Part shown: one piece after another, positions 26,853-44,000 of the stretch
Layout of the letters: each line of letters opens with the position of its first letter
Position numbering within the stretch: position 1 is the first letter of the stretch
Source: Campylobacteraceae bacterium
GTDB taxonomy: Bacteria > Campylobacterota > Campylobacteria > Campylobacterales > Sulfurospirillaceae
Length of the DNA stretch: 64,000 bases
Direction of reading: 5' to 3'
NCBI GenBank assembly: GCA_027050775.1
Contig: JALUBH010000011.1
Span: 1 to 64,000 of the forward strand
The notes under the pieces: model-generated
What the model saw: only the letters and a program-made list of their open reading frames with translations
The model's database searches: none
Told to the model about the DNA's origin: nothing
Program-made: the position numbers and the translations under genes

Positions 26853-26871
26853 CTTTCTCAAGTTTTGTCCT

Positions 26872-27459
26872 TTATAGTGTAACCGCATCGGTATTTAAAA
26901 GCATATCTACCGAGTCATAAGCATTGCCAATCTCACCTACTTTTAACTCTTCAGCTGGGATATTGTAAAAGTTTAAACATAGACCGCAACTATATATGCT
27001 AACACCTCTTTTTTCCAGCTCTTTGAGACTCTCAATTAAATCTAAATTCTCATCTTTAGTGGTTAAAAATACACCCTCATTTACAAATACAAGATTTGTT
27101 GGAAGTGCCTTAAACTCTAGCATAGTCTTCAAAAAACTCTTCATCAAAGTAGTTCCTAGCTCGCCATTTCCTATCTTATCAGTTTTTACGAAAACAGTTT
27201 TGTTTAGAAATTTTTCCTCTTGTTTTGATGCTACTACGCACTCATAGCCTTTTATGATTGTAATAAGTGTTTTGCCATCTTCCAACTCTTGGGCTCTACT
27301 TTCATAGCCCTGCTTTGAGGCAAATCTTTTTACATTTTCCACAGATGAAACAGAGTTTACCAAAACCTCAAGCAAAGAGTCATCTTCTAACTCTTCTAGT
27401 GCCTTTTTTGTCTCCAAAACTGGTTGAGGACAAGCCAAATCACAACAATCAATCTTCAT
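26872..27459 (-). CDS. yedF: YedF: TusA-like / DsrE-like selenium-metabolism protein
   Basis: Protein of 195 residues. The N-terminal TusA domain (about 1-75) has the sulfur-carrier motif CDLACPQPVLETKKAL. The C-terminal DsrE-like domain (about 100-195) ends with the redox-type motif YSCGLCLNFYNIP. This domain pair marks proteins that co-occur with SelD and may hand selenium to it. The ATG at 27459 is chosen because it lies behind AAAGGATATA; an earlier frame start overlaps the activator gene. Direct neighbour of selD, 19 bp apart. Confidence 0.88.
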   Translation of the reverse strand: MKIDCCDLACPQPVLETKKALEELEDDSLLEVLVNSVSSVENVKRFASKQGYESRAQELEDGKTLITIIKGYECVVASKQEEKFLNKTVFVKTDKIGNGELGTTLMKSFLKTMLEFKALPTNLVFVNEGVFLTTKDENLDLIESLKELEKRGVSIYSCGLCLNFYNIPAEELKVGEIGNAYDSVDMLLNTDAVTL

Positions 27460-27472
27460 AATATTATATCCT

Positions 27473-28234
27473 TTAAATTTCTTGACATATTTCATAACCG
27501 GCAAGTGCGGCACCAATCGAGCCCATCAACTGAGGTTTATCTGAAACCAATATCTTTTTTTCTAATTTTTTAGATAGCAAATGTTTTAAAAACGGATTTA
27601 ATGCTCCACCGCCACTAAAAAAAACATACTTACTCTTTGCAATAAATCTCCTCGCCATAGATGACAACCTAGAAGCGATTGAGCTGTGTATGCCATAGCA
27701 TATATTTGCCGCACTCTCTTTTTTTGCCATCAAAGATATAACTTCTGATTCGGCAAATACGGCACACATACTTGAGATTTCAAGTTCTTTATCTGCTTGA
27801 AATCCAAGGTTGGAAAATTTTTCCATATCGAGCCCCATCCTGTTTGCTGCGATTTCTAAAAACTTTCCAGTTCCCGCAGCACATTTGTCATTCATCCTAA
27901 AATCGATAAATCCACCTGTACCGTCTAATTTTATCACCTTGCTGTCTTGCCCACCAAGATCTATCACCAAATCTGTTTCCGTATTGTAAAAATATGCACC
28001 TTTTGCATGGGCTTTTATCTCACTTATAACGGGACAAGAAAATTTTTCTTCCACCATGTGTCTCCCATATCCTGTGGCCACTAGCATTTCTACTTTTTTA
28101 TCTTTTAAATACTCTGCTACTATTTCATCTTGATTCATAATAGTCGGGACAACAGTCGTATCTATGATATTTTTATCTTTATCTATGCCTGTAATCTTTG
28201 TATATGTCGAACCTATATCAACTCCCCAAAACAT
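27473..28234 (-). CDS. HgdC/BadF-type ATPase activator (YjiL-like)
   Basis: ASKHA-fold ATPase of 253 residues that uses ATP to push low-potential electrons into its partner. ATP site: GVDIGSTYTK at 4-13 and DLGGQDSK at 92-99. Cys118 (DKCAAGTGKF) and Cys157 (SMCAVFAESE) are the ligands of the 4Fe-4S cluster that bridges the homodimer. The gene starts directly after the stop of the HgdB-like gene. Here it serves a double-cubane-type partner next to selenium genes instead of a CoA-ester dehydratase with two different subunits. Confidence 0.9.
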   Translation of the reverse strand: MFWGVDIGSTYTKITGIDKDKNIIDTTVVPTIMNQDEIVAEYLKDKKVEMLVATGYGRHMVEEKFSCPVISEIKAHAKGAYFYNTETDLVIDLGGQDSKVIKLDGTGGFIDFRMNDKCAAGTGKFLEIAANRMGLDMEKFSNLGFQADKELEISSMCAVFAESEVISLMAKKESAANICYGIHSSIASRLSSMARRFIAKSKYVFFSGGGALNPFLKHLLSKKLEKKILVSDKPQLMGSIGAALAGYEICQEI

Positions 28235-29557
28235 CTATCTTATACCTTTGAATTTTTTTGCTTTTTTCTTAAATGCTAAACTTTCCAAAAATGCCTCTAC
28301 TCTGGTTTTAATCTGCCCTATATCTTCAGCAGAATAATCAGACTCTATGACAAGACAAGGTATCCCCTCTTTCTCTAAGGCTTGGGTTACAAGATGTGCT
28401 TCAACATTGTATGTATGGCAAAACGAGAGAGTATAATATATCACTCCATCAGCTTGTCTATCTTTATACATTTTTAAAATCTTATCAATTCTTGGAGTAT
28501 TTGGAGTAAAACAGGCACAATCCACTTTACTATATCTTTGCATCAATCTTTCGATAAAGGTTTCTTCATCTTCCACATTCTCCAAGTCAACATTATCTTT
28601 ATAGTACCTATGTCCTATGCAAGACTCTTCATTGATGATAGCTCCACCCGTGCTCTCAACAGCAGTATGAAGCTTCCAGTTTGGTGGCGCAAATGGAGTA
28701 CCCAAAACCATGAGCCTTGGAGTATCTTTTTCAAAAACACTTATCTTGTTTTTTACTCTCTCATCTAACTCATCACAAAGCTGATTGACTTTTTGAGTGT
28801 ATCGCACAGGGTCATCTAAAAATCCCATCTGAGTTATAAATAGTCCATCTTTTCCGCTTATCGGTATAACATCTGGATTCATTCCTCGAAGAGCATCAAG
28901 TCTTTGGAGGGCATCTCTTTTTTCATTGATGATTTTAGTGCCGTTTTTCATCTCTTCAAGAGTCAATTTTTTACCTATAACTTCTTCAATATGCTCTTTA
29001 AACTCTCTTATCTCTTCGCTCCACATTTTAAGATCTTTTTCTCTTTTCATGTGAGGAATATTCATCACATGTACAGGATGATGTTTATTTAGTATCTCCC
29101 AAGTCTTTTTCTTTGCTTCACATGTAGTCTCACCATAGATAAAATCAGAAGACTGTGTGTATGCACAAGTTCTTTGAAGTTTAAACCCATGGGCTGATTT
29201 TATAAGAGGGCAAATATTTCTAGGGAGTTCGCTCTCAGCATCAGGTATCGTAGCAGGGCTTCCTCCACAAAGACCATAGCAAGCCCCACCGGCTCCAACT
29301 ATAATCTCTTCTGGCACAAATATACAAAATGTTCCAACAGCCGGTTTCTTTTGACTTCTTAGTCTGTTTATTTCAGCTATTCTTTCACCCTGAATTTCGC
29401 TCATAAACCAATCAAAATACTCCATCCCTTTTGGTCTGTTTGGCTGAGATAAAAACTGCTTTTTATACGATTCTAATCCCGCAGACATCATTTTTGCATG
29501 TTTTTCAACATCTACACCGATACTATATAGTAAATCTTTATGTTCTTCTATACCCAC
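28235..29557 (-). CDS. HgdB-like double-cubane cluster protein (YjiM-like)
   Basis: Protein of 440 residues related to 2-hydroxyacyl-CoA dehydratase subunits. Conserved cysteines are at 78 (TFCIFVPEE), 93 and 97 (CYGLC), 116, 131 and 146, with more in CACFTPNTPR and SFCHTYNVEA. Single-subunit relatives with an activator carry a double-cubane [8Fe-9S] cluster and reduce small molecules at very low potential; their natural substrates are mostly unknown. GTG start behind AAGGG. It heads the operon activator-YedF-SelD, suggesting a role in selenium or sulfur reduction, though an ordinary dehydratase cannot be excluded. Confidence 0.82.
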   Translation of the reverse strand: MGIEEHKDLLYSIGVDVEKHAKMMSAGLESYKKQFLSQPNRPKGMEYFDWFMSEIQGERIAEINRLRSQKKPAVGTFCIFVPEEIIVGAGGACYGLCGGSPATIPDAESELPRNICPLIKSAHGFKLQRTCAYTQSSDFIYGETTCEAKKKTWEILNKHHPVHVMNIPHMKREKDLKMWSEEIREFKEHIEEVIGKKLTLEEMKNGTKIINEKRDALQRLDALRGMNPDVIPISGKDGLFITQMGFLDDPVRYTQKVNQLCDELDERVKNKISVFEKDTPRLMVLGTPFAPPNWKLHTAVESTGGAIINEESCIGHRYYKDNVDLENVEDEETFIERLMQRYSKVDCACFTPNTPRIDKILKMYKDRQADGVIYYTLSFCHTYNVEAHLVTQALEKEGIPCLVIESDYSAEDIGQIKTRVEAFLESLAFKKKAKKFKGIR

Positions 29558-29716: not shown

Positions 29717-29740
29717 AAAAAGACCGCCATATGACGGTCT
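29717..29740 (-). terminator. Rho-independent terminator
   Basis: On the minus strand AGACCG-TCATATGG-CGGTCT is followed directly by TTTT, 19 bp after the stop of the small exported repeat protein. It ends the large secreted-protein operon. Confidence 0.8.
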
Positions 29741-29758
29741 CATTGAGGTATTAGTTTG

Positions 29759-30097
29759 TTAATGTGCACCCAAAACAACACCACCGTTATTTCCAACAAC
29801 AACATTATCATTTCCCATTTCAGATTTTGCTTTAATAAGAGAATTGTCTATAGTTACTTTGCCACCAACAGCAACTATGCCACCATTGTTTCCTATAACT
29901 TTATTGTTGCTTCCCATCTTGGATTCTGCTATTAAATCAGAATTTGAAACTTCTACGGTAGCCTTATTTGCTATGGCTACCTCTTTATCTGCTTCTATCT
30001 TTGCCTTTAGAACCCCCGCTGCTGCACCCACTAAATCTTCTGCCGACAGAGATGTAAGTAAACCCATGATTGACAACGCTAATATTACTTTTTTCAC
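29759..30097 (-). CDS. Small exported protein with two NNGG repeats
   Basis: Protein of 112 residues: signal peptide about 1-19 (cut after SLSA), an Ala-rich helical stretch to about 48, then two imperfect repeats of about 30 residues. They are aligned as SDLIAESKMGSNNKVIGNNGG and SLIKAKSEMGNDNVVVGNNGG. The spaced Asn/Gly/Val pattern looks like stacked beta turns, as in beta-solenoids or amyloid subunits such as curlins, although the sequence is not curlin. It sits at the end of the CsgG-like locus, where a secreted subunit would be expected. Not recognised as a known family; GTG start behind AAAGGAA. Confidence 0.7.
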   Translation of the reverse strand: MKKVILALSIMGLLTSLSAEDLVGAAAGVLKAKIEADKEVAIANKATVEVSNSDLIAESKMGSNNKVIGNNGGIVAVGGKVTIDNSLIKAKSEMGNDNVVVGNNGGVVLGAH

Positions 30098-30137
30098 ACT
30101 ATTCCTTTTCTTAATTTTATTATATTATATAGATAGA

Positions 30138-30164
30138 TCCTATATAGGACAACTAACGTTAGTT
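30138..30164. promoter_or_regulatory. Two adjacent perfect palindromes
   Basis: TCCTATATAGGA (30138-30149) and AACTAACGTTAGTT (30151-30164) lie 1 bp apart between the CsgG-like lipoprotein gene and the small repeat protein gene. They could be operators for separate control of the small protein. Confidence 0.4.
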
Positions 30165-30190
30165 TTTAGAAACACACCTCCTCAATGAAA

Positions 30191-30946
30191 TTATATTTTT
30201 CTATTTCTGTGCCTAATAATCTGCTTGATAAGATTATACATACTCTCTTGCAATAATTTTCTAACAGATAACCCAGCCCCATCTTTTATGGTCTTATATC
30301 CGCTCATACCAATACCTGCGTTATTGATCGATACACCAAAATTATATCCCCTTGATGTTACTCTCATATCTATTTTTCCTGATGTTTTATATTCAATAAT
30401 TCCATTTTGTCTCAAATAGAAGTCAACTCCAAGCATTGAGAGTTTATCTTTATCTTTTGTGTCCGTATTTGAATTTGTTGCAGTTTTACCACCACCAAAA
30501 TCAAGACCTAGATTAAAACCAGATGATTGAACCATAATATTTTTATCATACATAGTAATTGCACCATCTAAGATATAGATATCCCCAGAAGTTTTTGCTG
30601 ATGTTATCATCTTTACAGCCACACTTGTGTTGTCAACTACTTTTACTTTTGGCCCAAAATCTACCAATATGCTAGTTAACAATCTTCTCATTGTTGGTGG
30701 TAATTCACCAGCACCTGCACCAGACATATTTCTTGAGCCATCTTTATCAATATATATATAAATTGGTCGCACATTCAAATCTTCTAGCATTTTCCCAAAT
30801 CTTTGTATTTTATCTAACTGATGTGTCTGTATAGTTGTAATCTTTTGCTCAGGGTGTTGCGATTCTACATCTGGCACAGGGGCAGGAGAACAACCTGCAA
30901 TCATTAATGCAAACAAACTGCCCAATACGCTAATCTTTTTAATCAT
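30191..30946 (-). CDS. CsgG/LpoB-like outer-membrane lipoprotein
   Basis: Lipoprotein of 251 residues with lipobox ALMIAGC (Cys19). The body has PIYIYIDKDG, VKVVDNTSVA, DIYILDGAITMYDK and, near the end, the CsgG-type helix YKTIKDGAGLSVRKLLQESMYNLIKQI. In the CsgG family, which includes LpoB and HfaB, this fold forms outer-membrane secretion pores or activator proteins. It is a clear paralogue of the protein encoded at 31554-32714. ATG 30946 is chosen because AAGGAA lies 5 bp upstream. Confidence 0.72.
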   Translation of the reverse strand: MIKKISVLGSLFALMIAGCSPAPVPDVESQHPEQKITTIQTHQLDKIQRFGKMLEDLNVRPIYIYIDKDGSRNMSGAGAGELPPTMRRLLTSILVDFGPKVKVVDNTSVAVKMITSAKTSGDIYILDGAITMYDKNIMVQSSGFNLGLDFGGGKTATNSNTDTKDKDKLSMLGVDFYLRQNGIIEYKTSGKIDMRVTSRGYNFGVSINNAGIGMSGYKTIKDGAGLSVRKLLQESMYNLIKQIIRHRNRKI

Positions 30947-30963
30947 TTTTTTCCTTTTAATCA

Positions 30964-31557
30964 TTAATTTAGAGGATCATCCTTGTCCCTTTTTAAAAAA
31001 TCAACCGCTATATTTAGTCCTTTTTCGGACAAATAATCTTGCTGACCAATTTTACTATTTTGCACATTTGAGTGCACATCGTATTTTGTATTATCTATGT
31101 TATTAGAAGTATTTACAATACCCGTATTTACATTTTGCTCAGAAAAGCCGTTTCTGATTTTACTATTTTTTACTATAGTAAATATTTGAATATCTATATC
31201 TGCATTTTCTTTAACTATCGCGCCTAAGTTTATCTTATAATCTTTGTTTGAAGTATTTGATGCATTTGTTCTATAAAAATTAGTATGTACATTTTGAACA
31301 ATTTTGTAGATTACATATTTTTTGCAACTATTTTGGTTATTTCTTATAGTCGTATTCAGTCTATCTTTATATCTCCTCCACTCTCTATTTCCATTAATAT
31401 TAACATAGATATAGCATATTCGACGTGTTTTGCGAGATTTATACACATGTTTAGCCTTAGTTTTAATTCTAGATTGCTGATAACTATAATTTACTAAATC
31501 TTCAGCATGCAAAGAAGAAAGAATGAAAACAAATATTAGCAAAAAACTTTTTATCAT
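30964..31557 (-). CDS. Exported protein with Asn-rich NSKI repeats
   Basis: Protein of 197 residues: signal peptide about 1-18, a basic segment with CYIYVNINGNREW, then an Asn-rich part. That part contains IVKNSKIRNGF and NVQNSKIGQQ about 40 residues apart, with NTGIVNTSNNIDNT between. The strand-turn pattern resembles a short beta-solenoid and recalls the small repeat protein at 29759. I do not recognise the family. It overlaps its upstream neighbour by 4 bp and so belongs to the operon. It could be a second secreted subunit or an accessory factor. Confidence 0.6.
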   Translation of the reverse strand: MIKSFLLIFVFILSSLHAEDLVNYSYQQSRIKTKAKHVYKSRKTRRICYIYVNINGNREWRRYKDRLNTTIRNNQNSCKKYVIYKIVQNVHTNFYRTNASNTSNKDYKINLGAIVKENADIDIQIFTIVKNSKIRNGFSEQNVNTGIVNTSNNIDNTKYDVHSNVQNSKIGQQDYLSEKGLNIAVDFLKRDKDDPLN

Positions 31558-32714
31558 CTCTGTATTACCTTACTGATTTCTATTCTATTTTTTATAAAAT
31601 CACAGTAATCTTTGCTTTTGGTACATCTTTCATGTACATATTTATTTTTGATTATCAAAGCATCTCTTGGAATATTTAGTCTAAAAATCTCCCTCCTGAC
31701 ATCCCTAGCATTTTGTTGTGCATCTGATAAAGTCATATTCTTTCCAATTATGGTTTTAAGAACTATCTTTATATCTTCACCTTTTTTTATTGCCTTATCA
31801 TATAAAGATTTCAGACATTTTAATTTATTGTGCTCACTTTCATAACTCATACCATACTCTTTAAATTTGATATCTTCTAATGGTTGCACATAAAAAACTA
31901 TACGATTCATATCGCTACAAAAATCATAATTGCTTAAAATTCTTGGTGCTTTAGCCATTTTTTTCATCTGTATCTCGGGCATAACTTGATAAGATTGTAT
32001 TGAAATTGCTTTTGCAATTAAATCTATTAGGCTACCCTCTATAATCTTTCTTACAGATAAACCTAATCCGTCTTTGATATTTTTATAACTGCTAATACCA
32101 AGACTTAAGCCGTACAAATTTAAACCAAAACTATACCCCTCATTTGTTTCTCTAATCATAATGCTGCTTGTTGTTTTGTATCGAATAATCCCATTTTGCT
32201 TTAGATATAAATCAGCAATCATTTGAGATGTCTTTTTCTTATCTTTAAATCTATCTCTATTGGTTTTCGAACTCCCTGCTGAACCTATTCTCAAATTTAA
32301 ACTAGCAGACGAACTTTCAGAAAAAATTCCTTTATCAAAAGCTGTAATTGCACCATCAAGTAAAAACACTCTCTTTGAAATATTTTGGTTTAATATTAGT
32401 TTATTTATCTGTTCTGCTGATGTAACAACTTTAACTTTGTCTCCAAAATCAGATAGTAAGCTATATGTCATCTTCTTTATATCTGGGATATCAGAGGAAG
32501 GAACTTCTGATTTCAAATTGCTATCAATGAAAATGTAAATTGGTTTTATATTTTCATTTTGCATCATCCTTTTAAACTCTTCTATTTTATAGTGATTGGC
32601 AGTTATATTTTTAGACAAAAATTGTTTTTTTTGCTTTACTTCCGGCTTTGGAGCAACACCGTTACAACCTAAAATCAAAAAACTAAGTACTAAAAGTAAT
32701 ATTTTTATTATCAT
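31554..32714 (-). CDS. CsgG/LpoB-like lipoprotein with extra C-terminal domain
   Basis: Lipoprotein of 386 residues with lipobox LSFLILGC (Cys near 17). Residues about 40-245 match the 251-residue paralogue segment by segment: PIYIFIDSN, VKVVTSAEQ, LLDGAITAFDKG, LYLKQNGIIRYKT and KDGLGLSVRKIIEGSLIDLIAKA. An additional domain of about 130 residues holds VFYVQPLEDIKFKEYG and MTLSDAQQNARDVRREI, which resembles the helix of OmpA-like peptidoglycan-binding domains but is not certain. One protein may form the pore and the other modify or anchor it. Confidence 0.7.
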   Translation of the reverse strand: MIIKILLLVLSFLILGCNGVAPKPEVKQKKQFLSKNITANHYKIEEFKRMMQNENIKPIYIFIDSNLKSEVPSSDIPDIKKMTYSLLSDFGDKVKVVTSAEQINKLILNQNISKRVFLLDGAITAFDKGIFSESSSASLNLRIGSAGSSKTNRDRFKDKKKTSQMIADLYLKQNGIIRYKTTSSIMIRETNEGYSFGLNLYGLSLGISSYKNIKDGLGLSVRKIIEGSLIDLIAKAISIQSYQVMPEIQMKKMAKAPRILSNYDFCSDMNRIVFYVQPLEDIKFKEYGMSYESEHNKLKCLKSLYDKAIKKGEDIKIVLKTIIGKNMTLSDAQQNARDVRREIFRLNIPRDALIIKNKYVHERCTKSKDYCDFIKNRIEISKVIQR

Positions 32715-32716
32715 GC

Positions 32717-33247
32717 CTACATCTCATCTATTGGATTTTGGTTAAAATGTTTTATGAATTTATTTAGATCATCATTCTTTTTATCTGTTCTGTCTTGTTC
32801 ATAAAAATTTATTATATTTAAACTTTTTAAAGCACCATATTTATAAGCATACCATTTGACAAAATATCCAAAGTTATCTCTTGAATCTTTTAATCCATTT
32901 CTCATTAGTAGGTTAACCATATCAGCAAACTTATTTTTTACAGCTACATACAAAACTGTTCTACCTTGCCTATTTACATGATTTATATCAAATCCATAAG
33001 CAATTAAAAAATCAACAATATCTTTGTCATCTGATCTTACAGCATTAAAAAGCAAAGTCTCATCATTTTGATTTTCATAATTAAAATTGCAAACTGATCT
33101 TATGGATTTCTTAAACATTGTAAAATTATCTGCTCTTATAAGCTTAATAAGTTCAGAAGTGGGCACACACTTGCTTTGTGTTTTATTATAAATATCTTCA
33201 CCGTACAAAGAACTTATAAGCAATACCGATAGCAATAGCCTACTCAT
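32717..33247 (-). CDS. Exported ankyrin-repeat protein
   Basis: Protein of 176 residues with a signal peptide (about 1-16, cut before EDIY) and at least two ankyrin repeats: NDETLLFNAVRSDDKDIVDFLIAYGFDINH and QGRTVLYVAVKNKFADMVNLLMRNG. Ankyrin repeats bind other proteins. A periplasmic one inside this operon probably scaffolds assembly of the CsgG-like complex. Neighbours are 2 bp downstream and an 8-bp overlap upstream. Confidence 0.78.
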   Translation of the reverse strand: MSRLLLSVLLISSLYGEDIYNKTQSKCVPTSELIKLIRADNFTMFKKSIRSVCNFNYENQNDETLLFNAVRSDDKDIVDFLIAYGFDINHVNRQGRTVLYVAVKNKFADMVNLLMRNGLKDSRDNFGYFVKWYAYKYGALKSLNIINFYEQDRTDKKNDDLNKFIKHFNQNPIDEM

Positions 33248-33638
33248 CCGCCCCTCTGATATAGAATTTGAATGAATCTATCTTTGGCGTTACTGCTAAA
33301 TCCTTGAGTATTATCGAGTCTTTTGCATCTATATAGGTATCTCTCCATTTTGATTTATCTTTAGCTATTTCAAAACCACTCCCATCATACCAAACAAACT
33401 TATATTCTAAATAGTGCCTGTTCGTATCTTTGTTCTTCACTGTAACTCTAGCATCAAGCAAGTTATATACAAATCTCGAATCAGAACCTACTATTTTTAT
33501 ATTATAAGACAATGGAATATCATTAATGATAATTGTGTCACTATCGCTTTGAAATGTATTGCTAGCTGTGTTATCGCCGGCTTGTAGTGTATTCAAGCCA
33601 AATGCAAATAGCAAAATAAGTAGTATTTTCTGGATCAT
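33240..33638 (-). CDS. YcfL-like (DUF1425) periplasmic protein
   Basis: Protein of 132 residues: signal peptide about 1-21 (cut near LQAG), then a beta-sandwich with DARVTVKNKDTNRHYLEYKFVWYDGSGFEI and DSIILKDLAVTPKIDSFKFYIRG, the pattern of DUF1425 (YcfL). In E. coli ycfL lies beside lpoB, and in other bacteria DUF1425 genes cluster with CsgG/LpoB-like genes, matching this setting. ATG 33638 is chosen since the preceding gene ends at 33641. Confidence 0.75.
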   Translation of the reverse strand: MIQKILLILLFAFGLNTLQAGDNTASNTFQSDSDTIIINDIPLSYNIKIVGSDSRFVYNLLDARVTVKNKDTNRHYLEYKFVWYDGSGFEIAKDKSKWRDTYIDAKDSIILKDLAVTPKIDSFKFYIRGADE

Positions 33639-33640
33639 CT

Positions 33641-34078
33641 CTATTTTACCTTTTGCATGCAACTATTTTCACATCCTATATTTAACAAAACATCTTTTGC
33701 TTTGTAATTCGGAGCATCTAGCACTACTCTTTTAGCATCACCGGGATACAATCTTATTTTTCTAGCTTGTGGATAAGTTGATATTTGGACTCCTCTATCA
33801 TCTGACCATTTTGGATCTATGATGAGGTTATATATGTCATCAGAATTGTTGTTTATAATACACTGCAACTCTCTTCTGCTTTTTCCATAAGATATTCTAG
33901 CATCTGTAATCTCAATATTGTTTCTCACTTTACTGTTACTTATAAAGACGCTTATCCCCTTTGGATAACTAGACTCGTAAACTTTGGAAACTCTACTTAC
34001 CCTAGGAGAGTTATTGGCACATGCACTAAACATAATTCCTACCGCCACTACTATAATCAAACTTAAACTTTTTTTCAT
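33641..34078 (-). CDS. YcfL-like (DUF1425) lipoprotein
   Basis: Lipoprotein of 145 residues with lipobox GIMFSAC (Cys20). Its body has the DUF1425 pattern: ITDARISYGKSRRELQCIINNNSDDIYNLIIDPKWSDDRGVQI and a Pro-Gly turn before KRVVLDAPN. It is the lipidated sister of the next gene product. The C-terminus is rich in Cys (GCENSCMQK). It overlaps the extended frame of its neighbour, and a short gap separates it from the 405-residue protein gene. Confidence 0.75.
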   Translation of the reverse strand: MKKSLSLIIVVAVGIMFSACANNSPRVSRVSKVYESSYPKGISVFISNSKVRNNIEITDARISYGKSRRELQCIINNNSDDIYNLIIDPKWSDDRGVQISTYPQARKIRLYPGDAKRVVLDAPNYKAKDVLLNIGCENSCMQKVK

Positions 34079-34090
34079 ATTCTCTTCTCC

Positions 34091-35308
34091 TTATTGAAAT
34101 CGAACAACTATTATATTGTTGCCCTTGTCTTTTACCTGAATTTTAAATCCAACAGCATCAGCCATATCATAGAGATCGAAAGCTAAATCATCTGTATCTA
34201 TCTCACTGTTTGTTCCAAAATTATAAACCTGTTCAAAATCTTTACTCTCAGCTGAATTTCTCCTCGGTCTTGCACCTAATTTTTTTATGACATCTTTGAC
34301 TATTTTTATCTTATTTCTATTTTTAGAATCATAAGTAACACCACTAATAATCACAGTATAGAAGTATTTATATTTTTTTACTTTTGATATTTTTTTGACT
34401 CTTGTTTTCTTTCTAATGCTTTTTAAAATATTATTTGTAATCTCTCTACTAGCTATACCCGCAGCTTTTCTATAGAGCTTAAATTTTAACTGCTCTTTAG
34501 TTGCTCCAAAACTCTCTATATCTTCAGAACGAATAGCATTATCAACTCTACCTGTTTGGGTATTTAGCATATTCATTCTATATATCAAAGAACCGTTAAG
34601 ATTGCCATAACTATCTTTACCTGTAATATGAAATTTAAGATTTGTTAATTTAAAGAGATAGTTTACGCTTTTATTATTTTTACACTCCTGCAATTTTTGC
34701 TTTATCGCCACTAAAGCACTTCTGTAAGCGGAACCTTTGGCTTTGTATTTTCTGTATTCTCTCTGTATAAAGGCACATTTATTTCCTCTAGTACCTACTT
34801 GCGTACCTTTCTTTACGATTCTCAAGGAATTGCCATTGTCATTTATACTTCCTTGAAGGTTTGTTATAAAATCACGACTTAAGTCATTGTTTACATCATC
34901 TATAAGCACTATGTCTAAATTTTCAACACCATTTCTGCCCATAGTTGTGCTGCTATTTGATTTTTCAGCAACGATAGCTTTTATCTGCTCAAGATTTAAG
35001 TTTGCCAAAACCAAACATTCATAACCGTCTTCACCTAAATTGTTACATCTTGCTCTAGGATTTCTAAAATATGTTTTTTGAAATTCTATAAAATCTTTAT
35101 TCATATCTTCCTTAAAAGACTCTTTCACATTACCGACATAGCTACTTGCACCCATAACCTTATCTAGCGCTTGTTGGAAAATAACCCAATACGCATCTTG
35201 TATAGCCTCTTGCCTTGTAGGAGCTTGTTCTACCGCCTTCATTCTCACCATATTAGCACTCAGCACCATAGACAACATAAATAATACTGCCACTATTTTT
35301 TTCACCAT
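34091..35308 (-). CDS. Exported protein with LPP20/FlgT-like N-terminus
   Basis: Protein of 405 residues: signal peptide about 1-17, then EQAPTRQEAIQDAYWVIFQQALDKVMGASSYVG, the TRxxAIxDAxxxAxxQxxG motif shared with LPP20 and FlgT N-terminal domains and with the 690-residue protein of this locus. A middle domain (about 125-270) has IVLIDDVNNDLSRDFI and YLFKLTNLKFHITGKDSYGNLNGSLIYRMNML, as in CsgG-like proteins. A basic C-terminal domain follows (KKTRVKKISKVKKYKYFYTVIISG). Function unknown; likely periplasmic. Confidence 0.65.
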   Translation of the reverse strand: MVKKIVAVLFMLSMVLSANMVRMKAVEQAPTRQEAIQDAYWVIFQQALDKVMGASSYVGNVKESFKEDMNKDFIEFQKTYFRNPRARCNNLGEDGYECLVLANLNLEQIKAIVAEKSNSSTTMGRNGVENLDIVLIDDVNNDLSRDFITNLQGSINDNGNSLRIVKKGTQVGTRGNKCAFIQREYRKYKAKGSAYRSALVAIKQKLQECKNNKSVNYLFKLTNLKFHITGKDSYGNLNGSLIYRMNMLNTQTGRVDNAIRSEDIESFGATKEQLKFKLYRKAAGIASREITNNILKSIRKKTRVKKISKVKKYKYFYTVIISGVTYDSKNRNKIKIVKDVIKKLGARPRRNSAESKDFEQVYNFGTNSEIDTDDLAFDLYDMADAVGFKIQVKDKGNNIIVVRFQ

Positions 35309-35312
35309 TTAT

Positions 35313-36656
35313 CTACTCCTTGCAAAATCCTTGATAGTCAAAATCAAGTCTATCTTTTCTCTGTTTTACTATATTTAAAATTATATCTCTTAATTTAGGT
35401 ACCATTTCTTCTATGGATTTTCTAAGTGTTTTTGTTATTTTATTTTTTTGAACATAACTCAATTTATTGACTATATTGTATCCAAAACTTGCCTGACCTA
35501 CTGCCATCTTTTTCTTTTTAATGATGTCTGACGGCAAACTCATACCATCTATCTTTTTTTTACCCTCTATAGATAAAACAACTCTTGATGCTATGCTTGA
35601 TTTTATATATCTTCCGCTATTCACATCCTCTTTTTTTACAAGTTTATCATATAGTTCGCTCACAATAGCTTCTATAAAATAGCCATTTACAAAGATAGTA
35701 GAACCACCATTTTTAACGGATGAACAGGTTTTTTTTAATTTTCTGATTAAAACTTCAGAGTCATTATCCGCATTTGTGTTAATGAATACGCTATTTATTC
35801 GCCTCAGATAATCTTTCCAATTTTTAAATATTCTTTTATTTAGCGTATCCGGATATAAGAGAACTACATCGTCTAGCCTTTTGTCTGCTCTAATATCTTT
35901 TATAAGAGCCTCTTGCAGGATTGATAAAATCTGCTCTTTTGCACGATTTTTATCTCCAAAGACTTTTAAGGCTAAGTTTTTTGCATTTTTACCAATTACT
36001 ATTTTACTTATAGAAAAATATATATCATCACTTGTAAAACTTTTGACTTTTTTTGAGTGCCTGTCTGCTATGATTGCATCTATAAGATCGCCCAAAGCTT
36101 TCTTATAAAAATTCCTATATCCTTCTTGTAATTTTTTCTCTCTATTATCTGTTGGCTGTATACCTAAAAGACCTGTGGTTGTGATGCCATTTGTATATCT
36201 TACTTCAAAATTACTATGCAGATCTGCACGATTTGACTCTTCTCCAATCTGAACAAATGTTAAATTAAGCGTGATATAAACAAGCTCCTGACCACTTGCC
36301 AAAGTTGTAGAGTTTTCAAATGTATTAATGTTAAAAAAACCTATTTTTTTATCAACATCATTAGATTGTAGTACAATTTTTTTATAATTTTTATCAAATC
36401 TATTTTTTAAGATTATATTAAACTTATTAGCACCTATCCTATCCTTATAATCATTTTTTAAGAGTTTTTCCGTAAATTTACTTAAACCCCAACCATCATC
36501 TTTAGAAGATAACAGGTTAGGGGCAACTAAGTTTTTTTCTAGGTTAGGAGATTTTTCATTATATGTGCCTATGAAAAGAGTTGGCATATTGCCTGCCAAA
36601 AGAGTACCGCCTAATAAAAAAAATAGATACAGCACTAGCTTTTGGAATTTTTTCAT
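35313..36656 (-). CDS. Exported protein of unknown family
   Basis: Protein of 447 residues with a signal peptide (about 1-21, cut after LLAG). The predicted structure is mixed alpha/beta, with Asn/Asp-rich loops and long Lys-rich helices in the second half (SIEEMVPKLRDIILNIVKQRKDRLDF). The segment ELVYITLNLTFVQIGEESNRADLHSNFEVRYTNGITT looks like a beta domain. I do not recognise a family. The 4-bp gap to the next gene makes it part of the operon. Confidence 0.6.
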   Translation of the reverse strand: MKKFQKLVLYLFFLLGGTLLAGNMPTLFIGTYNEKSPNLEKNLVAPNLLSSKDDGWGLSKFTEKLLKNDYKDRIGANKFNIILKNRFDKNYKKIVLQSNDVDKKIGFFNINTFENSTTLASGQELVYITLNLTFVQIGEESNRADLHSNFEVRYTNGITTTGLLGIQPTDNREKKLQEGYRNFYKKALGDLIDAIIADRHSKKVKSFTSDDIYFSISKIVIGKNAKNLALKVFGDKNRAKEQILSILQEALIKDIRADKRLDDVVLLYPDTLNKRIFKNWKDYLRRINSVFINTNADNDSEVLIRKLKKTCSSVKNGGSTIFVNGYFIEAIVSELYDKLVKKEDVNSGRYIKSSIASRVVLSIEGKKKIDGMSLPSDIIKKKKMAVGQASFGYNIVNKLSYVQKNKITKTLRKSIEEMVPKLRDIILNIVKQRKDRLDFDYQGFCKE

Positions 36657-36668
36657 ATTATGTTAAGC

Positions 36669-37514
36669 TTACGAATCTAGTCCATTAAGTTCAGCTTCTG
36701 CTTCGGATGCAATCTTTTTATCTGTTTTTATAGCTTTGTTAGCAGCTCTTTTAGCTATATTTTTATCAACTTTTCCGTTGTAAAGTGGACTTGTCGCCAA
36801 TGATGTCAGTGTAGGCAAAACGGAGATTGTTGTTTTTAATTGAGAAGCGACCGTAACCAAATCTTTAACATGCTGTAACCCCCAAACTATATCATCCTTT
36901 GCAAACTCTAAAATCTCTTTATCCCAGCCTAAAACCATATAGCCCATGATAGGAGTTGCTATAGCCAGCTTACCCATTGCTGCACTATATTTTGCTCTAT
37001 CTTTAACTTTAGCTTTGCCTATCAACTTTAATAATTTAGTATTATCCTCCACTACGCTATCTCTATATTCTGCCTCTTTGAGAGATTTCTTTTTATGAGC
37101 AATCTCTTCTTGAAGCGTTTGAATCTCTTTTGTTTGAGATACTGATGCCAAGATATCTTCATTTGCATTTGCTATATTTTTTTCAAAACCACCCGTAATT
37201 GTTTTGAGATATTTGAGTCTATTGTCCGCCTCACAAGTATTTGTTAGCGGTGTTGGAATTTGTATATTTTTAGCACCGGCAACACTCTTCAGAGCCGATT
37301 CTATAGCGAGGGATAAAACTTTTTTAGTAACCATTTGGGTTAAGCTTGTGCTACCGCCTGACATTCTTGGAATACAGCGCTTATTTACCTTGGCAGAACC
37401 ATTACTAGCAGTAGAGCTTGTGCTAGCTCCTGTTACAGCACCCACAATGCTACTAAAACCAAAAGCACTTAACATTACCACACTTGACGCACTTAATACT
37501 ATTTTTTTTATCAT
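36669..37514 (-). CDS. Exported Ser/Thr- and Ala-rich protein with coiled coil
   Basis: Protein of 281 residues: signal peptide about 1-22, a low-complexity Ser/Thr/Gly stretch (TGASTSSTASNGSAK), four cysteines (KRCIP, NTCEAD and others), a coiled-coil segment (TKEIQTLQEEIAHKKKSLKEAEYRD) and a hydrophobic ATPIMGYMVLGW. First gene of the leftward operon; ATG 37514 is preferred over the longer frame because AAGGG lies directly before it. Family unknown. Confidence 0.62.
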   Translation of the reverse strand: MIKKIVLSASSVVMLSAFGFSSIVGAVTGASTSSTASNGSAKVNKRCIPRMSGGSTSLTQMVTKKVLSLAIESALKSVAGAKNIQIPTPLTNTCEADNRLKYLKTITGGFEKNIANANEDILASVSQTKEIQTLQEEIAHKKKSLKEAEYRDSVVEDNTKLLKLIGKAKVKDRAKYSAAMGKLAIATPIMGYMVLGWDKEILEFAKDDIVWGLQHVKDLVTVASQLKTTISVLPTLTSLATSPLYNGKVDKNIAKRAANKAIKTDKKIASEAEAELNGLDS

Positions 37515-37589
37515 TTTTTCCCTTACAGATAATTTTAATTTATAAAATGATACAATTTTTAAACTTAAATTTTTCACAAAGGACAATAG
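37515..37589. promoter_or_regulatory. Divergent promoter gap of the secreted-protein locus
   Basis: 75 bp between the leftward nine-gene operon and the rightward two-gene operon, very AT-rich, with TATAAA/TACAAT-type -10 candidates. Both sides start with a signal-peptide protein, so the locus is probably switched on as one. Confidence 0.5.
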
Positions 37590-38957
37590 ATGAAGAAAAG
37601 ATTAATTTTTTCCATACTAGCTGCAACTTTATTACAAACAGTTATTTTTGCAAAAAGTATTGAAATTAAACAAAAAGATGTAACAGAAATAAATAAATAT
37701 GCACAGAGTGCTTCACCTATTGATATCGACGACCAGATAGAAAATCAAATTCAAAAATATGCACAAAAACATGATTTTGAATTTGGGGTTGATACAAAAA
37801 GGGGTAAATATTTTATATATGACATAGAATCTGTTGCTCTTAAACCAACAGATCCTGATTTTGTCAAAAGTTTATCTGTAGCTTACGAAAAAGCTTTCTT
37901 TAACGCACAAGAAGAATTTGTCATGGATATATTTGGCAGAACAGTCAATGCAAAAAAGATAAGTCTATTTGCAAATAACTCAACCGACGCAAAAGAGTTT
38001 GCATCAGATAAAATTGACAATCGAGGAGTGATGGCTAAAATAGGAAGAATTTTCGACAAAACCCTCTCTCTAACCGAAAAATCACTAGACAATGCCCTTG
38101 TCAAGCTAGGAGTCAACCCATCCAACATAGAAAAATTAAGCAGAAAAGAGAAAAATACATTATTCAAAAATAAATTTATAGCACAAACTATGAAAGAAGC
38201 TTTTGGAAGTGTGGCTGGATTCATTCCAATTAAAACTTTTGTGGGAAAAGATACACGAGGTCAATATGCAGTTGGCGTTATCGCGATGAGAAGCGATAAA
38301 ACGTCACAAGTTGCAAAAGATATATCAAGGCAAAGATACACAAATATACAGGGGCGAGGCAGAAGTATAAAAGATATGGTGCCTAGTGACAAAAAAGAGT
38401 TATTAAACGAATTTGGATTAAGATTAGTCTTTGACGCAACAGGAAAACCGGCACTCATCTCATATGCCCAATGGGGATTTAATGCCAAGGGGTTAGGCTC
38501 TTATATGAAAAATCAAGCTAAAAAGAATGCAAAATCTATGGCTCAAGATATGGCTGACTCTTTTATATCAGATTTCGTAAATGGCAATCTACAAGTATCA
38601 TCTCAGAGTGAACACGGGGAGATAATCAAAAGAGTCCTTGAGAGGGAGGGCGGAGCAGATGGAATGGTTACAGATAGAACAATTAAAACCATATTGGACA
38701 AAATCAATAAAAATGCAAAACTAAAATCATCCATGGAATTAGCAGGGATAAGTACAGTAAGAAAATGGTCAACAACAAATAAATTTGGACTGTATGTTGC
38801 AGGCGTTGTAAGAAAATGGACATTTAGCGGATTAAATGAAGCCAAGTCTGTACAAGAAGGCAGAAGAATAACCACAGGAGAAAAACGCGAGAAGAAGAGA
38901 AGCTACTCAAACAGCATAAATGGAAGTGCAGAATACAATACTGTAAACGATTTCTAA
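37590..38957 (+). CDS. Exported DUF6844/LPP20-like protein
   Basis: Protein of 455 residues with a signal peptide (about 1-21). SLSVAYEKAFFNAQEEFVMDIFGRTV (about 92-117) and the later YAVGVIAMRSDKTSQVAKDI and FGLYVAGVVRKWTF resemble the repeated LPP20-like folds of DUF6844 proteins, which occur near CsgG-like genes. The C-terminus is basic and Ser/Asn-rich (KREKKRSYSNSINGS). It starts behind AAAGGACAATAG, and the 690-residue gene follows after 17 bp. Role unknown. Confidence 0.62.
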   Translation: MKKRLIFSILAATLLQTVIFAKSIEIKQKDVTEINKYAQSASPIDIDDQIENQIQKYAQKHDFEFGVDTKRGKYFIYDIESVALKPTDPDFVKSLSVAYEKAFFNAQEEFVMDIFGRTVNAKKISLFANNSTDAKEFASDKIDNRGVMAKIGRIFDKTLSLTEKSLDNALVKLGVNPSNIEKLSRKEKNTLFKNKFIAQTMKEAFGSVAGFIPIKTFVGKDTRGQYAVGVIAMRSDKTSQVAKDISRQRYTNIQGRGRSIKDMVPSDKKELLNEFGLRLVFDATGKPALISYAQWGFNAKGLGSYMKNQAKKNAKSMAQDMADSFISDFVNGNLQVSSQSEHGEIIKRVLEREGGADGMVTDRTIKTILDKINKNAKLKSSMELAGISTVRKWSTTNKFGLYVAGVVRKWTFSGLNEAKSVQEGRRITTGEKREKKRSYSNSINGSAEYNTVNDF

Positions 38958-38974
38958 TTAAAAAGGGCAAATAG

Positions 38975-41047
38975 ATGTTTTTAAAATTATTTTTAACAGT
39001 TATATCCATCTCAGTTATTCTATTCTCCAGTGAAGGCACAAGAATCGAAAAAACAACACAAGTTAATGGATATGGAATGACGAGAAGTGCCGCTATAGAA
39101 GATGCCTTAATAGAAGCAGTAAAGCAAAAAAATGGAGCTTATATAGCATCTGTAAAGCAGAGTTTTAGTGCATACTCCCAAAATTCTATCTCTCTAAACG
39201 GTACAAATGTCAATATTACAAAAGCCAATGACGCTATGGTGCAACAGATAAGAGTGGCAACAAAGGGATATATAGACAGTTATGATATAGACGATATCAC
39301 AAAGCGCAATGATGGCTACAAAGCCACCATCGATATTCATACGATAGAGTATAAAACACCGGGATATAGTGCCAACAATAGGCGAAAAATCGTAATTGTA
39401 CCTACATACACAGAAAATATAGTTTTTCGAGTTTTAAATCATCTAAAAAGCATGAAAGATGTTAGTTATAATCTCACTCAATATCTTATAGATTCTATCA
39501 CACAAACAAGAAAATTTTCAGTTCTTGATAGAGCTAACAAAAAAGCATACACGGATGAAGCAAGAGTAATCCTCTCTCCCGATGCAGACAAAGATGAGAT
39601 TTTAAAACTCGGCAAGGTTCTAGGAACTGACTACTTAGTAGTGTCAACAATCAAAGAATTTAAAATCATCAATAAAAAAACAATGATTCGCTCAATCGGA
39701 CAAGAGGTTAGTAAGCTTAAAGTTTATGCTGTTGTTCACTACCAAATATTAACCATGGCGACTAGACAAATCAAGTGGTCAAATACACTAAATTTTGAAT
39801 TTACACCAAAAGGCAAAAATGAACAACAAATTTTTTATAATGCTCTTAAAAAGATAAGCGCTGCTTTAACAACAGATATCATAAGCAACATTTATCCATT
39901 AAGAATCTCAAAAGTTTCATTAAATGGAGATGCTATCATAATGCAATCTACAAAGCTTGGAACAATCTACAATGTATATGCTCTCGGTGACAAGCTTTAT
40001 GACCCTTACACCAAGGAATTTCTAGGTTATGATGAAGTAAAAACAGGCAAAATCAAGATAGTAAGATCCCTTGCAAAAGTCTCTTACGGAAAAGTCATAG
40101 AGGGCGAGATACAACCAAATAGCATATGTAGAAAAGTTAAGAATATAGCTGAAAAAGACATAAAAGTACGTAAGAGAGAAGAGACCAGGATAGGCAACTA
40201 CGACAAAAGTTCATCTCTAAATAACAAAAAAAGTATCGTCATAAAATCCTTGAGTATTAGTAGCAAAATAGACAAATACAAATACAAATACATAAAAGAC
40301 GCCAACATAGAACTAAAAATCAAAGATCTTGTCAACAAATCAAAAGAGTATAGGGTTCTAACAAGAGATAAAGAGCAAGCACAAGCTATGATGGATGAAA
40401 ATGCCTTTGCAAAAAGTGATATCTCTGATAGCATGGATAAAAGCTCTATGACTTTTGCAAATACTGACTATCAACTACTACCAAAAGTAACAAAATTTAA
40501 AATCTACACAAGTTCAGTCAAGATTCCAGATATTGATGCTTATGATAATCGTGACTATATTAAAATGGAACTTAATGTGGTGGTCATCAACAGAAAAGGT
40601 GAAGTAATTTTTGAATCTACAAAATCTGGTACATACTCAAAAAGTTGGGGCAGCTCCAAGAAACTAAGAAGAAAAAGACCGTCTTATCGAAATGTAAGTA
40701 AATTAGCAAATAAAATAGTCGTAAAAGTTTTATATGACTTGCTAAATAAAAAAGCTCAACTTATGAACAACAAATTCATAACTGTTGTAGAAGTAGATAA
40801 AAGATCAATCTACCTCGACATGGGAAACAATAAAAATATCCATGAGGGCGATCTATTTCCTGTTTATAGAGAGCCTAAAATTAAAATTATAAAAAGAACA
40901 GGAAAGACAAGACTTAGCTATGGAGATAGGATTGCTACCGTTAGAATAAGTGGAGTCTATGAAGATGGAGCAGAGGCAGTGGTCGTAAGGGGTAAGATTT
41001 CCAACATAAAAGAAGGTGATGTACTAAGAGTAAAAAAGGCTAGATAA
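38975..41047 (+). CDS. FlgT/CsgG-like multidomain exported protein
   Basis: Protein of 690 residues with a signal peptide (about 1-18). Order of parts: a FlgT N-terminal/LPP20-like domain (GYGMTRSAAIEDALIEAVKQKNGA, about 30-110); a CsgG-like domain (KFSVLDRANKKAY ... LGKVLGTDYLVVSTIKEF, about 125-300); an SH3-like segment (about 305-375); a second alpha/beta domain; and a C-terminal SH3-like domain (IYLDMGNNKNIHEGDLFPVYRE ... ISNIKEGDVLRV) as in FlgT. FlgT builds the H-ring around the Vibrio motor, so this protein may form or brace a ring with the CsgG-like lipoproteins. Confidence 0.7.
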   Translation: MFLKLFLTVISISVILFSSEGTRIEKTTQVNGYGMTRSAAIEDALIEAVKQKNGAYIASVKQSFSAYSQNSISLNGTNVNITKANDAMVQQIRVATKGYIDSYDIDDITKRNDGYKATIDIHTIEYKTPGYSANNRRKIVIVPTYTENIVFRVLNHLKSMKDVSYNLTQYLIDSITQTRKFSVLDRANKKAYTDEARVILSPDADKDEILKLGKVLGTDYLVVSTIKEFKIINKKTMIRSIGQEVSKLKVYAVVHYQILTMATRQIKWSNTLNFEFTPKGKNEQQIFYNALKKISAALTTDIISNIYPLRISKVSLNGDAIIMQSTKLGTIYNVYALGDKLYDPYTKEFLGYDEVKTGKIKIVRSLAKVSYGKVIEGEIQPNSICRKVKNIAEKDIKVRKREETRIGNYDKSSSLNNKKSIVIKSLSISSKIDKYKYKYIKDANIELKIKDLVNKSKEYRVLTRDKEQAQAMMDENAFAKSDISDSMDKSSMTFANTDYQLLPKVTKFKIYTSSVKIPDIDAYDNRDYIKMELNVVVINRKGEVIFESTKSGTYSKSWGSSKKLRRKRPSYRNVSKLANKIVVKVLYDLLNKKAQLMNNKFITVVEVDKRSIYLDMGNNKNIHEGDLFPVYREPKIKIIKRTGKTRLSYGDRIATVRISGVYEDGAEAVVVRGKISNIKEGDVLRVKKAR

Positions 41048-41075: not shown

Positions 41076-44000
41076 CTAAAAATCCTTTGCGTAGAGTATG
41101 CTTACGCCCTCGCCGCTCTCTTTTACATCTACATCTATTCTTATAGATTTGCTTAGGCTGTATTGGACTATAATACTCGAAATTGTATCGTTTTTATATA
41201 TCACTCTTATCTTGTCATTTAAACTCGCACCCACTTCATAGCCAAATCTTTTGTCTTTACTACTTAGGATATTTAGAGTATCTATATTTATATGAGTAGT
41301 GTCTTGAAACATCTTTTTAAGTCCTGCTCCATATAGAAGCGTCCCCAAGGATATGGAGGTTTGAGAACCTTTCGAGCTTCCAAAAGCGCTGTTTGCGGGT
41401 TTTCCAAAGAGTATGTAGGACATGATATCGTTTTGACTCATAGTCGGATTTGATGCCAAGATCATCAGTGGAGACGAGAGAGTATTTGCTATATATACTT
41501 TGATCTTTACATTATCTTGTGCTTTGTACAGAAGATTTATATTTAGATATGGATTTATAGGGTTTGCACCTCTTAGGTAGATTTCACTTTTTGCTATCTC
41601 AAACTTTTTGCCGCCTCTTACTATCTCTCCATTTTTTATAGTAAGCATACCTAGATACTCTAGCGACCCTCCCTCTTCTTGAAAAATAGTAAAATCCGGT
41701 ATAAATCTCAATTTCAAGTCTTTTATTTCATAATTTATCGGGTTTTTAGATTCTATTTGTATATTTATATTTCGTTTGAGAGATCTGTTTTCATGGACAT
41801 TTTGGATGATGATTATATCCTCATCTGAGACATTATATCCCTTTTTAGGCTCTACTTTCACGACTCCTTTGAGCAATGTTATTTTGCCCTCTATATTTTG
41901 CTTCCCATCTGGGCTCAGACTCGCTGTTATATCGGCATTTGCTGTTACATTTCCTTCTTTACCCTCATATCTAAAATTTTTGCCCACAAGATGCAATACG
42001 CCCTCTTTTTTCAATGGATCCACAACTCCTTTAAGTAGGAGATTATCAAATATCCAAAACTCTTTAAACTCTATCTTGCCACTCTTGGTTAGGCTTATTT
42101 TCGAGGCTCTGTTTGAGTAGATATGGTGGTTTAAGATATAAAAACTATAACCGCTTATCAAGGCTTGTGTATTTTTAAAAGTAGACTCTACCCATAAATT
42201 TTTGCCTTCATATCTGTTTTGGTTATCAAGCACCACTTTATACCAAGGCATCTCAATCTTGCTTTTAAAGAGTATATCTTTTGTGATATCTAGCTTGGAT
42301 TTCAGATTTACTTTTGCATCTATATAGAAGTTTTTGTTAAACCCGCCAACCCCGACATCAAGCAAAAATTTTCTCAAAGAGGCAAGTTTTGCATTTATAT
42401 CTAGTGAGATTCCGCTTTTTTTATCGATTTTTCCGTTCAAGTTAAAATATCCCGTCGCTAGATTTCCCCATCCTCCCAACACATCTTTTTTTCTAAAGAG
42501 CGTGACATTTAACATCTTGGCATCTATGTTTAACACTCTGCTATCTTTATCACTATATATAGTAATCTTTGCAGGTGAAATCTTATCCACTCTATAATCT
42601 CGCCATAGTTTATACTCTTGATTTGGGTAAAATACCGTCTCAAAAAGTCTGCTTTTAAGATTTATATTATATTTTGATTTGAATCTTCCTGCCACACTTT
42701 GCGCAAAAAACTCTCCACTTAATTTTAAAGGAGAAATGTGCAAGACGGCATCCGTGTGCATATCTATCTTATCTTTTTTAAATATATCGGGAAAATTATC
42801 TAAAAAACCTAGAGTCGCCCCTTTTGCCGCGCCATATATACGAAAGCTCTTGTAGTCTCCTTTTATATCAAACTTATACAATCCTGCCTCTACATGTAGA
42901 GCTATTTTTTTGCTGTCTCCTTTTAGTGTTGTGTTTATATCGTTAAACGGAAGTTTTATCTTGGAGTGCAATATCTTTGAGGTTAGAGTTGAAGTAAAGT
43001 TACCTTTTGTTGTTAAAGCTCCTTTTTGGTTTACTTTAAACAGATATGTATCTTTTTTGATTTTGTATGTTGAACTAAAATCTATATTATCGGAATTAAA
43101 GAGGTATTTTAGTGTTAGGTTTATATCTTTTGCTTCAAACTCTTTTATATCTAGCTTGGATATATCTGTGTTTAGATTTATACCTTTTTTATCTGCTTTT
43201 AGTTTAGCCTTAAAGGGATAAGGATAGCTTTTTAAACGACTTAGATACTGTTTTTTAGGATATAGTTTTGCAAGTCCGGATAGTCTATTTTTATATAAAG
43301 AACCATCTAATTTTAGTTTTCCATATTTTGGTGATGCGATAGAGAGATTTAGGTTTTTTATGTTTACGTTGTCTTTGTAATTTATCTTTGAAGCAGTTGT
43401 GTTTATAAGAAACCGTTTGTTATTTTGCACTATATCCGCACTTAAATTTAAAGTCCCTTTGTTAAAATTGTAGCTGGTTTTATATATATTGTTCTGGTTT
43501 TTAAGTGAAATATTGCCATCAACTAAAAGTGGTGATAACTTTATCAAAGAGTCCATATCTATGTCTGATTTACCCTTTAAACCTAGAGTCGCCCCTTTTG
43601 CCGCGCCATATATACGAAAGCTCTTGTAGTCTCCTTTTATATCAAACTTATATAATCCTGCCTCTACATGTAGAGCTATTTTTTTGCTGTCTCCTTTTAG
43701 TGTTGTGTTTATATCGTTAAACGGTAGTTTTATCTTGGAGTGCAATATCTTTGAGGTTAGAGTTGAAGTAAAGTTACCTTTTGTTGTTAGAGCTCCTTTT
43801 TGTGTCATTTGAAATAAAAAGGCATCTTTTTTGATTTTGTATGTTGAACTAAAATCTATATTATCAGAATTAAAGAGGTATTTTAGTGTTAGATTTATAT
43901 CTTTTGCTTCAAACTCTTTTATATCTAGCTTGGATATATCTGTGTTTAGATTTATGCCTTTTTTATCTGCTTTTAGTTTAGCCTTAAAGGGATAAGGGTA

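Follow-up and report, generated by a model that had tools for sequence, protein, structure and literature searches.

Which kind of envelope system is encoded by the run of exported-protein genes at positions 29759-41047 of the window, the 64,000-nucleotide stretch that we analysed (positions 1 to 64,000 of contig JALUBH010000011.1, Campylobacteraceae bacterium, GCA_027050775.1)? The original prediction, made from the DNA letters, saw here one distinct apparatus around CsgG/LpoB-like lipoproteins. Our results revealed that the cluster consists of two modules, an older envelope gene set (module A) and a separable CsgG block (module B). The genes at 29759-33635, which make up module B, probably constitute a curli/Hfa-like export-and-assembly module with a subunit family of its own, standing beside DUF1425/LpoB/FlgT-type proteins that would serve as periplasmic support.

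Two gene sets in one cluster

The region holds twelve genes for exported proteins and not the eleven first counted; ten of them are read from the minus strand (29759-37514), the other two from the plus strand (37590-41047). The limits of the cluster, its two divergent operons and the 75-bp gap between them stood, the gap on condition that x281 starts with the ATG at 37514; this start is supported because x281 of a congener (genome G404) has 280 aa. Neighbours in the minus-strand operon overlap by 4-8 bp or lie 2-17 bp apart, the exception being 93 bp before p112. As had been claimed, all twelve products carry a hydrophobic N-terminus or a lipobox when judged by eye, and Pfam recognised two DUF1425 proteins, the exported ankyrin protein, the DUF6844-like protein and the FlgT-like protein (Table 1). 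NCBIfam named no family, PADLOC returned ankyrin matches and one weak CsgG386 match and nothing else, and the Rfam and tRNA scans found none.

In the congener G404, module A is complete at locus L097 (FlgT693-DUF6844 and x281-x447-x405-DUF1425a) and the cluster ends there. DUF1425b is absent from that locus and CsgG was not found in the assembly. The DUF6844 proteins of the two genomes are 71% identical, and the FlgT-like orthologue has 693 aa. Module B (DUF1425b-ankyrin-CsgG386-x197-CsgG251-p112) occurs in other families too. Since the congener is without the CsgG block and the block is found elsewhere without x281, x447 and x405, the two gene sets do not all travel together. The reading of the cluster as a single machine was ruled out by locus L097, which stops at DUF1425a. 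The survey of co-travel that had been suggested as a check separated modules A and B, but it also placed the CsgG block repeatedly beside DUF1425-, LpoB- and FlgT-type genes.

The same block genes, in rearranged order, were observed in L068 (a Campylobacteraceae metagenome-assembled genome), L069 (a Sulfurimonas metagenome-assembled genome) and L061/L070 (genome G249), a five-gene block being conserved in L068, L061 and L069. At these loci the block lies beside DUF1425 and two LpoB lipoproteins, and in L068 and L061 beside a TPR protein too. CsgG386 has orthologues in L068 (2e-119), L061 (1e-70) and L069 (4e-74), and DUF1425b is closest to the DUF1425 proteins that adjoin CsgG in L061, L033, L068 and L069. 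In L033, the genes upstream of DUF1425-LpoB-DUF6844-FlgT encode a repeat protein of 260 aa, an x197-like protein of 199 aa and one CsgG. A three-sequence CsgG profile matched 8 of 397 phylum genomes, several weakly, and a search of 60 relatives added CsgG in G415, G420 and G405. No match to CsgG386 was found on plasmids.

Two further proteins recur at CsgG loci. A presumed outer-membrane exported protein of about 355 aa, with no Pfam family, is common to the three most similar loci (L068:1065-2126, L061:6417-7493, L069:8129-9238); a search of the window genome, run without a positive control, gave no match to it. Two distant loci have a gene for an NMT1-like periplasmic protein directly behind that for CsgG (L033:4055-5248 and L099:9524-10543, 4e-15).

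The CsgG-like lipoproteins and their repeat-protein neighbours

The fold that had been predicted for the 251-aa lipoprotein was recovered in its model (AlphaFold2, 12 sequences, mean predicted local distance difference test score (pLDDT) 64, predicted template modelling score (pTM) 0.63). Foldseek gave CsgG 4uv2 as the best PDB match (E 1e-4), with all top matches being CsgG (1e-4 to 2e-3), and VIA-align gave CsgG 6l7a (Z 11.6, 150 residues at 4.4 A), the order of Z being CsgG at 11.6-9.3, then DUF330 at 9.0 and FlgT at 8.5. In hhalign the CsgG251 family aligned with E. coli CsgG over 215 columns (E 2e-4, prob 45%), collinearly along the whole chain and including both hairpin regions. The YPASNF residues, which form the constriction of E. 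coli CsgG, fall in a gap of this alignment. Amphipathic beta stretches at residues 140-154 and 188-208 (family-averaged beta-moments) are as expected for membrane hairpins. Both lipoproteins failed to reach the Pfam cut-off for CsgG (E 0.13 for the 251-aa protein, no match for the 386-aa protein), and a CsgG profile search against the sequences of PDB chains gave no CsgG or other meaningful match. Neither lipoprotein matched PF13036 (LpoB), to which the neighbours' LpoB proteins score 6e-41 to 2e-15. Of the label "two paralogous CsgG/LpoB-like lipoproteins", the CsgG likeness and the paralogy held and the LpoB part did not. Fold and collinear profile alignment support the assignment of CsgG251 as a CsgG-type outer-membrane exporter such as curli possess, and its 39% identity to CsgG251 supports the same type for CsgG386.

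What might such an exporter carry? The small repeat protein noticed at the terminator end, p112, is a repeat protein indeed: its self-similarity at offset 33 scored 85, compared with 46 for the best of 300 shuffles, and a terminator follows its gene. Homologues of p112 adjoin CsgG in L068 (two), L061, L069, L064 and L033, and a search of 397 genomes for the family matched four, each of which has the adjacent CsgG. Of 85 open reading frames within 2.5 kb of CsgG, 17 encode exported proteins with a periodicity of 28-38 residues, compared with 5 of 582 that lie elsewhere (Fisher p 2e-12, an optimistic value that overstates independence because the loci were chosen as CsgG-positive and some are related). 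Without four ankyrin proteins and one TPR/Sel1-like protein, 12 of the 17 are left, and one of the five elsewhere lies in a CsgG cluster. An exported neighbour with 29-37-residue repeats is present in 9 of the 12 Campylobacterales loci with the CsgG clade (weakly in L099). The repeats measure 36 residues in two proteins of L102 (z 70-79), 34 in L101 (z 72), 33 and 35 in L098 (z 28 and 14), 32 in L033 (z 27) and 33 in L068 (z 27). The earlier statement that no curlin partner is recognisable holds, but p112 is most likely the CsgG partner and candidate substrate. The cleanest tandem repeats that we saw are at L102:2908-11056 (G405), where the two 36-residue-repeat proteins, CsgG457, an LPP20-like protein and DUF2807 are encoded in one gene run.

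Homologues of x197 also adjoin CsgG in L068, L069 and L061 (phmmer 2e-43 to 6e-21), and the L033 alignment is looser. Its internal repeat test was not significant, and comparison of profiles revealed no relation between p112 and x197. The protein may be a second secreted subunit or an adaptor.

The pairing reaches outside the phylum. A tblastn search of plasmids with the L101 CsgG returned two Azospirillum CsgG-DUF4384 proteins. About 1.7 kb from the CsgG-DUF4384 gene of A. lipoferum 4B lies the gene for a secreted protein of 97 aa, whose repeat measures 37 residues (z 17.5). On both Azospirillum plasmid loci (L112 and L113) the CsgG-like domain fused to DUF4384 is followed by an OmpA-family gene; in L062 the CsgG/DUF4384 association may occur as neighbouring genes.

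For the export-and-assembly module, we propose that CsgG251 and CsgG386, each by itself or both jointly, would make up a pore in the outer membrane, and that p112, perhaps with x197, would cross it unfolded after Sec export. Once at the surface, the 33-residue repeats could fold and form stacks, giving a beta-solenoid or amyloid-like fibre or an anchor. The DUF1425/LpoB/FlgT-type neighbours, i.e. module A here and TPR-DUF1425-LpoB elsewhere, may form a periplasmic ring or a peptidoglycan-linked support of the pore.

Several results weigh against this proposal, besides the overstated independence mentioned above. CsgF had no match in the window genome and one match below the cut-off (E 0.009) in G392 only, with the E. 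coli control positive. The hairpin segments of CsgG251 were modelled below pLDDT 50, within the low mean already given. At the CsgG loci L062, L100 and L063, the last of which is at the end of a contig, no repeat protein adjoins CsgG, and none was seen at the A. ramasamyi CsgG-DUF4384 locus. The model of p112 is weak (pLDDT 61), the top of its PDB fold search being the amyloid FapC at a non-significant E of 2.9, and no sequence relation of p112 to E. coli CsgB was seen. The p112 profile likewise gave no meaningful match among PDB chains.

Known systems and competing explanations

Curli share with module B a CsgG-type outer-membrane lipoprotein encoded beside exported tandem-repeat proteins. 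They differ in that the repeats here have 29-37 residues and two CsgG paralogues are present. The curlin motif Q-x-G-x-x-N was absent from all 13 repeat proteins, so that none shows the X6QXGX2NX10 pattern of curli subunits, and Curlin_rpt (PF07012) was found in none of the 8 CsgG-positive genomes, with the E. coli control positive. CsgE had no match in a general Pfam scan of the window genes, and no search aimed at CsgE was made. A 2012 survey recorded curli in Alpha-, Beta-, Gamma- and Deltaproteobacteria, Bacteroidetes, Firmicutes and Thermodesulfobacteria; Epsilonproteobacteria are not listed (PMC3521004).

By description, the locus can also be likened to HfaABD, the holdfast anchor of Caulobacter, in which a CsgG-like HfaB goes with small surface proteins. 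HfaA is CsgA-like, and HfaB is needed to place HfaA and HfaD at the surface (PMC6707917). A CsgG-type lipoprotein with small exported subunits, with neither CsgF nor curlin found, is nearer to HfaABD than to csgBAC-csgDEFG, and p112 and x197, once secreted, might hold a polysaccharide adhesin at the outer face, with no free fibre. However, the cluster has no holdfast genes and no genes for polysaccharide synthesis or export, and we regard such an anchor as unlikely. Much the same doubt applies to a role in peptidoglycan-linked machinery, where the lipoproteins would act as regulators of the LpoB type or as structural rings, the repeat protein would be a periplasmic scaffold and nothing would be secreted. 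DUF1425 and LpoB families are constant neighbours of the block, and in G249 (L061:18175-19041) a 288-aa protein fuses DUF1425 (1.5e-20) to LpoB (6.8e-33), which gives physical support for a YcfL-LpoB partnership. In addition, the Cj0091/HP1457 homologue resembles LpoB, and peptidoglycan hydrolases are candidate partners of HP0018, HP0018 and HP1457 being the Helicobacter counterparts (PMC11394524). Yet CsgG251 matches CsgG in fold, its paralogue CsgG386 presumably does so too, and both are missed by the LpoB model, which finds nothing in the window genome. The pairing of repeat proteins with the CsgG clade holds even at L064, L098 and L101, loci at which neither LpoB nor DUF1425 was seen as a neighbour.

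The FlgT_C domain of the 690-aa protein and the flagellar FlgI of the window genome might suggest an accessory of the flagellar motor, an additional ring contributed by FlgT-like and CsgG-like proteins. This we consider very improbable. FlgI was matched in 5 of the 8 CsgG-positive genomes and is missing from G303, G415 and G392, which speaks against a flagellar role of the CsgG block, and no flagellar genes were among the conserved neighbours read. The 690-aa protein shares FlgT_C and a CsgG/FlgT_M-like domain with FlgT of the Vibrio flagellar H ring; it differs in length (356 residues in the solved chain 3w1e) and in being encoded in an envelope operon and not a flagellar one.

Secretion of a repeat subunit through a CsgG-type pore stays our preferred explanation of module B. 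We further put forward, with less assurance, that it may belong to a third family of CsgG-type surface fibres apart from curli and Hfa, having a diverged exporter and non-curlin solenoid-repeat subunits of 29-37 residues, in this lineage with a two-paralogue pore braced by DUF1425/LpoB/FlgT-type proteins, and reaching beyond Campylobacterota (Azospirillum). Should our explanation of module B be right, Campylobacterota would possess CsgG-type systems of their own for surface fibres or anchors, with a new family of subunits, and these have escaped notice because Pfam and NCBIfam hardly recognise exporter or subunit. The DUF1425/LpoB/DUF6844/FlgT-like locus, which is poorly understood and includes the Campylobacter adherence lipoprotein Cj0091, would then be linked to a testable export apparatus. 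Among the open-access papers searched, we found none that joins CsgG with Campylobacterota or DUF4384 with CsgG, or that names DUF6844.

Module A, coordinates and flanking genes

The DUF6844/FlgT pair of module A belongs to a widespread Cj0089-Cj0093-type envelope locus of Campylobacterales, whose typical neighbourhood comprises a TPR lipoprotein (HP0018/Cj0089-like), DUF1425, LpoB, DUF6844 and a FlgT-like protein. In C. jejuni, cj0089-cj0091 form a single operon, whose product Cj0091 is located in the outer membrane and is required for adherence (PMC3100323). DUF6844 and FlgT-like genes are adjacent in most of the Campylobacterales loci that were read, and in the window the DUF6844 gene comes first; queries with the 690-aa protein matched in 47 of 200 phylum genomes, with relatives of about 400 aa. 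The window shares DUF1425, DUF6844 and FlgT-like proteins with the neighbourhood of the Cj0089-Cj0090-Cj0091 operon and its downstream genes. It differs in being without the TPR and LpoB genes and in having x281-x447-x405 in a divergent operon instead, and no LpoB (PF13036) was matched anywhere in its genome (2.19 Mb). Because the locus is widespread, the congener block is similar and LpoB was not found in the genome, module A is best seen as a local variant of this locus without LpoB.

Among 249 phylum genomes, x447 matched in the window's own genome only, and profile comparison revealed no relation of x447 to FlgT. The start of x405 aligned with the L033 FlgT N-terminus over 46 columns (prob 35%, hhalign); no relation of x405 to a 449-aa protein of L102 was found. 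Promoter-like matches across the region were no commoner than in shuffles, and the one before p112 (Table 1) is suggestive by position alone.

Table 1. Features of the cluster, in order of position in the window
Feature	Position	Strand	Remarks
Intrinsic terminator behind p112	29720..29741	-	9-bp stem, 4-nt loop, T-run
p112, exported, 112 aa, two 33-residue repeats	29759..30097	-	GTG start, AAGGA upstream; candidate secreted subunit
Promoter-like TTGTCC-17-TATAAT in 93-bp gap before p112	30124..30152	-	10/12 match
CsgG251, CsgG-type lipoprotein	30191..30946	-	lipobox IAGC; predicted pore subunit
x197, exported, CsgG block	30964..31557	-	C-terminal half N-rich
CsgG386, second CsgG-type lipoprotein	31554..32714	-	lipobox LGC; ~140-aa C-terminal extension; 39% identical to CsgG251
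Exported ankyrin protein, CsgG block	32717..33247	-	Ank_2 3e-12; syntenic homologues in L068, L061, L069
DUF1425b (YcfL-like), first gene of CsgG block	33240..33635	-	PF07233 1.3e-18
DUF1425a lipoprotein	33641..34078	-	PF07233 2.5e-7; last module A gene on - strand; orthologue ends cluster in L097
x405, exported, module A	34091..35308	-	72% identical in L097; weak FlgT_N-like start
x447, exported, module A, no known family	35313..36656	-	69% identical in L097
x281, exported, module A, no known family	36669..37514	-	orthologue in L097
DUF6844 protein, module A	37590..38957	+	PF20891 1.5e-24
FlgT-like 690-aa protein, module A	38975..41047	+	CsgG/FlgT_M-like (CsgG 6.8e-6) and FlgT_C (PF16538, 3.1e-8)

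On one side of the cluster (25824-29557), genes for SelD-like, TusA-DsrE fusion, BadF-type ATPase and HgdD-type proteins lie in a row, possibly a selenium-related set. On the other side (41076-44591), a 1171-aa TamB-like protein with a long, nearly identical internal repeat is encoded, followed by TamA.

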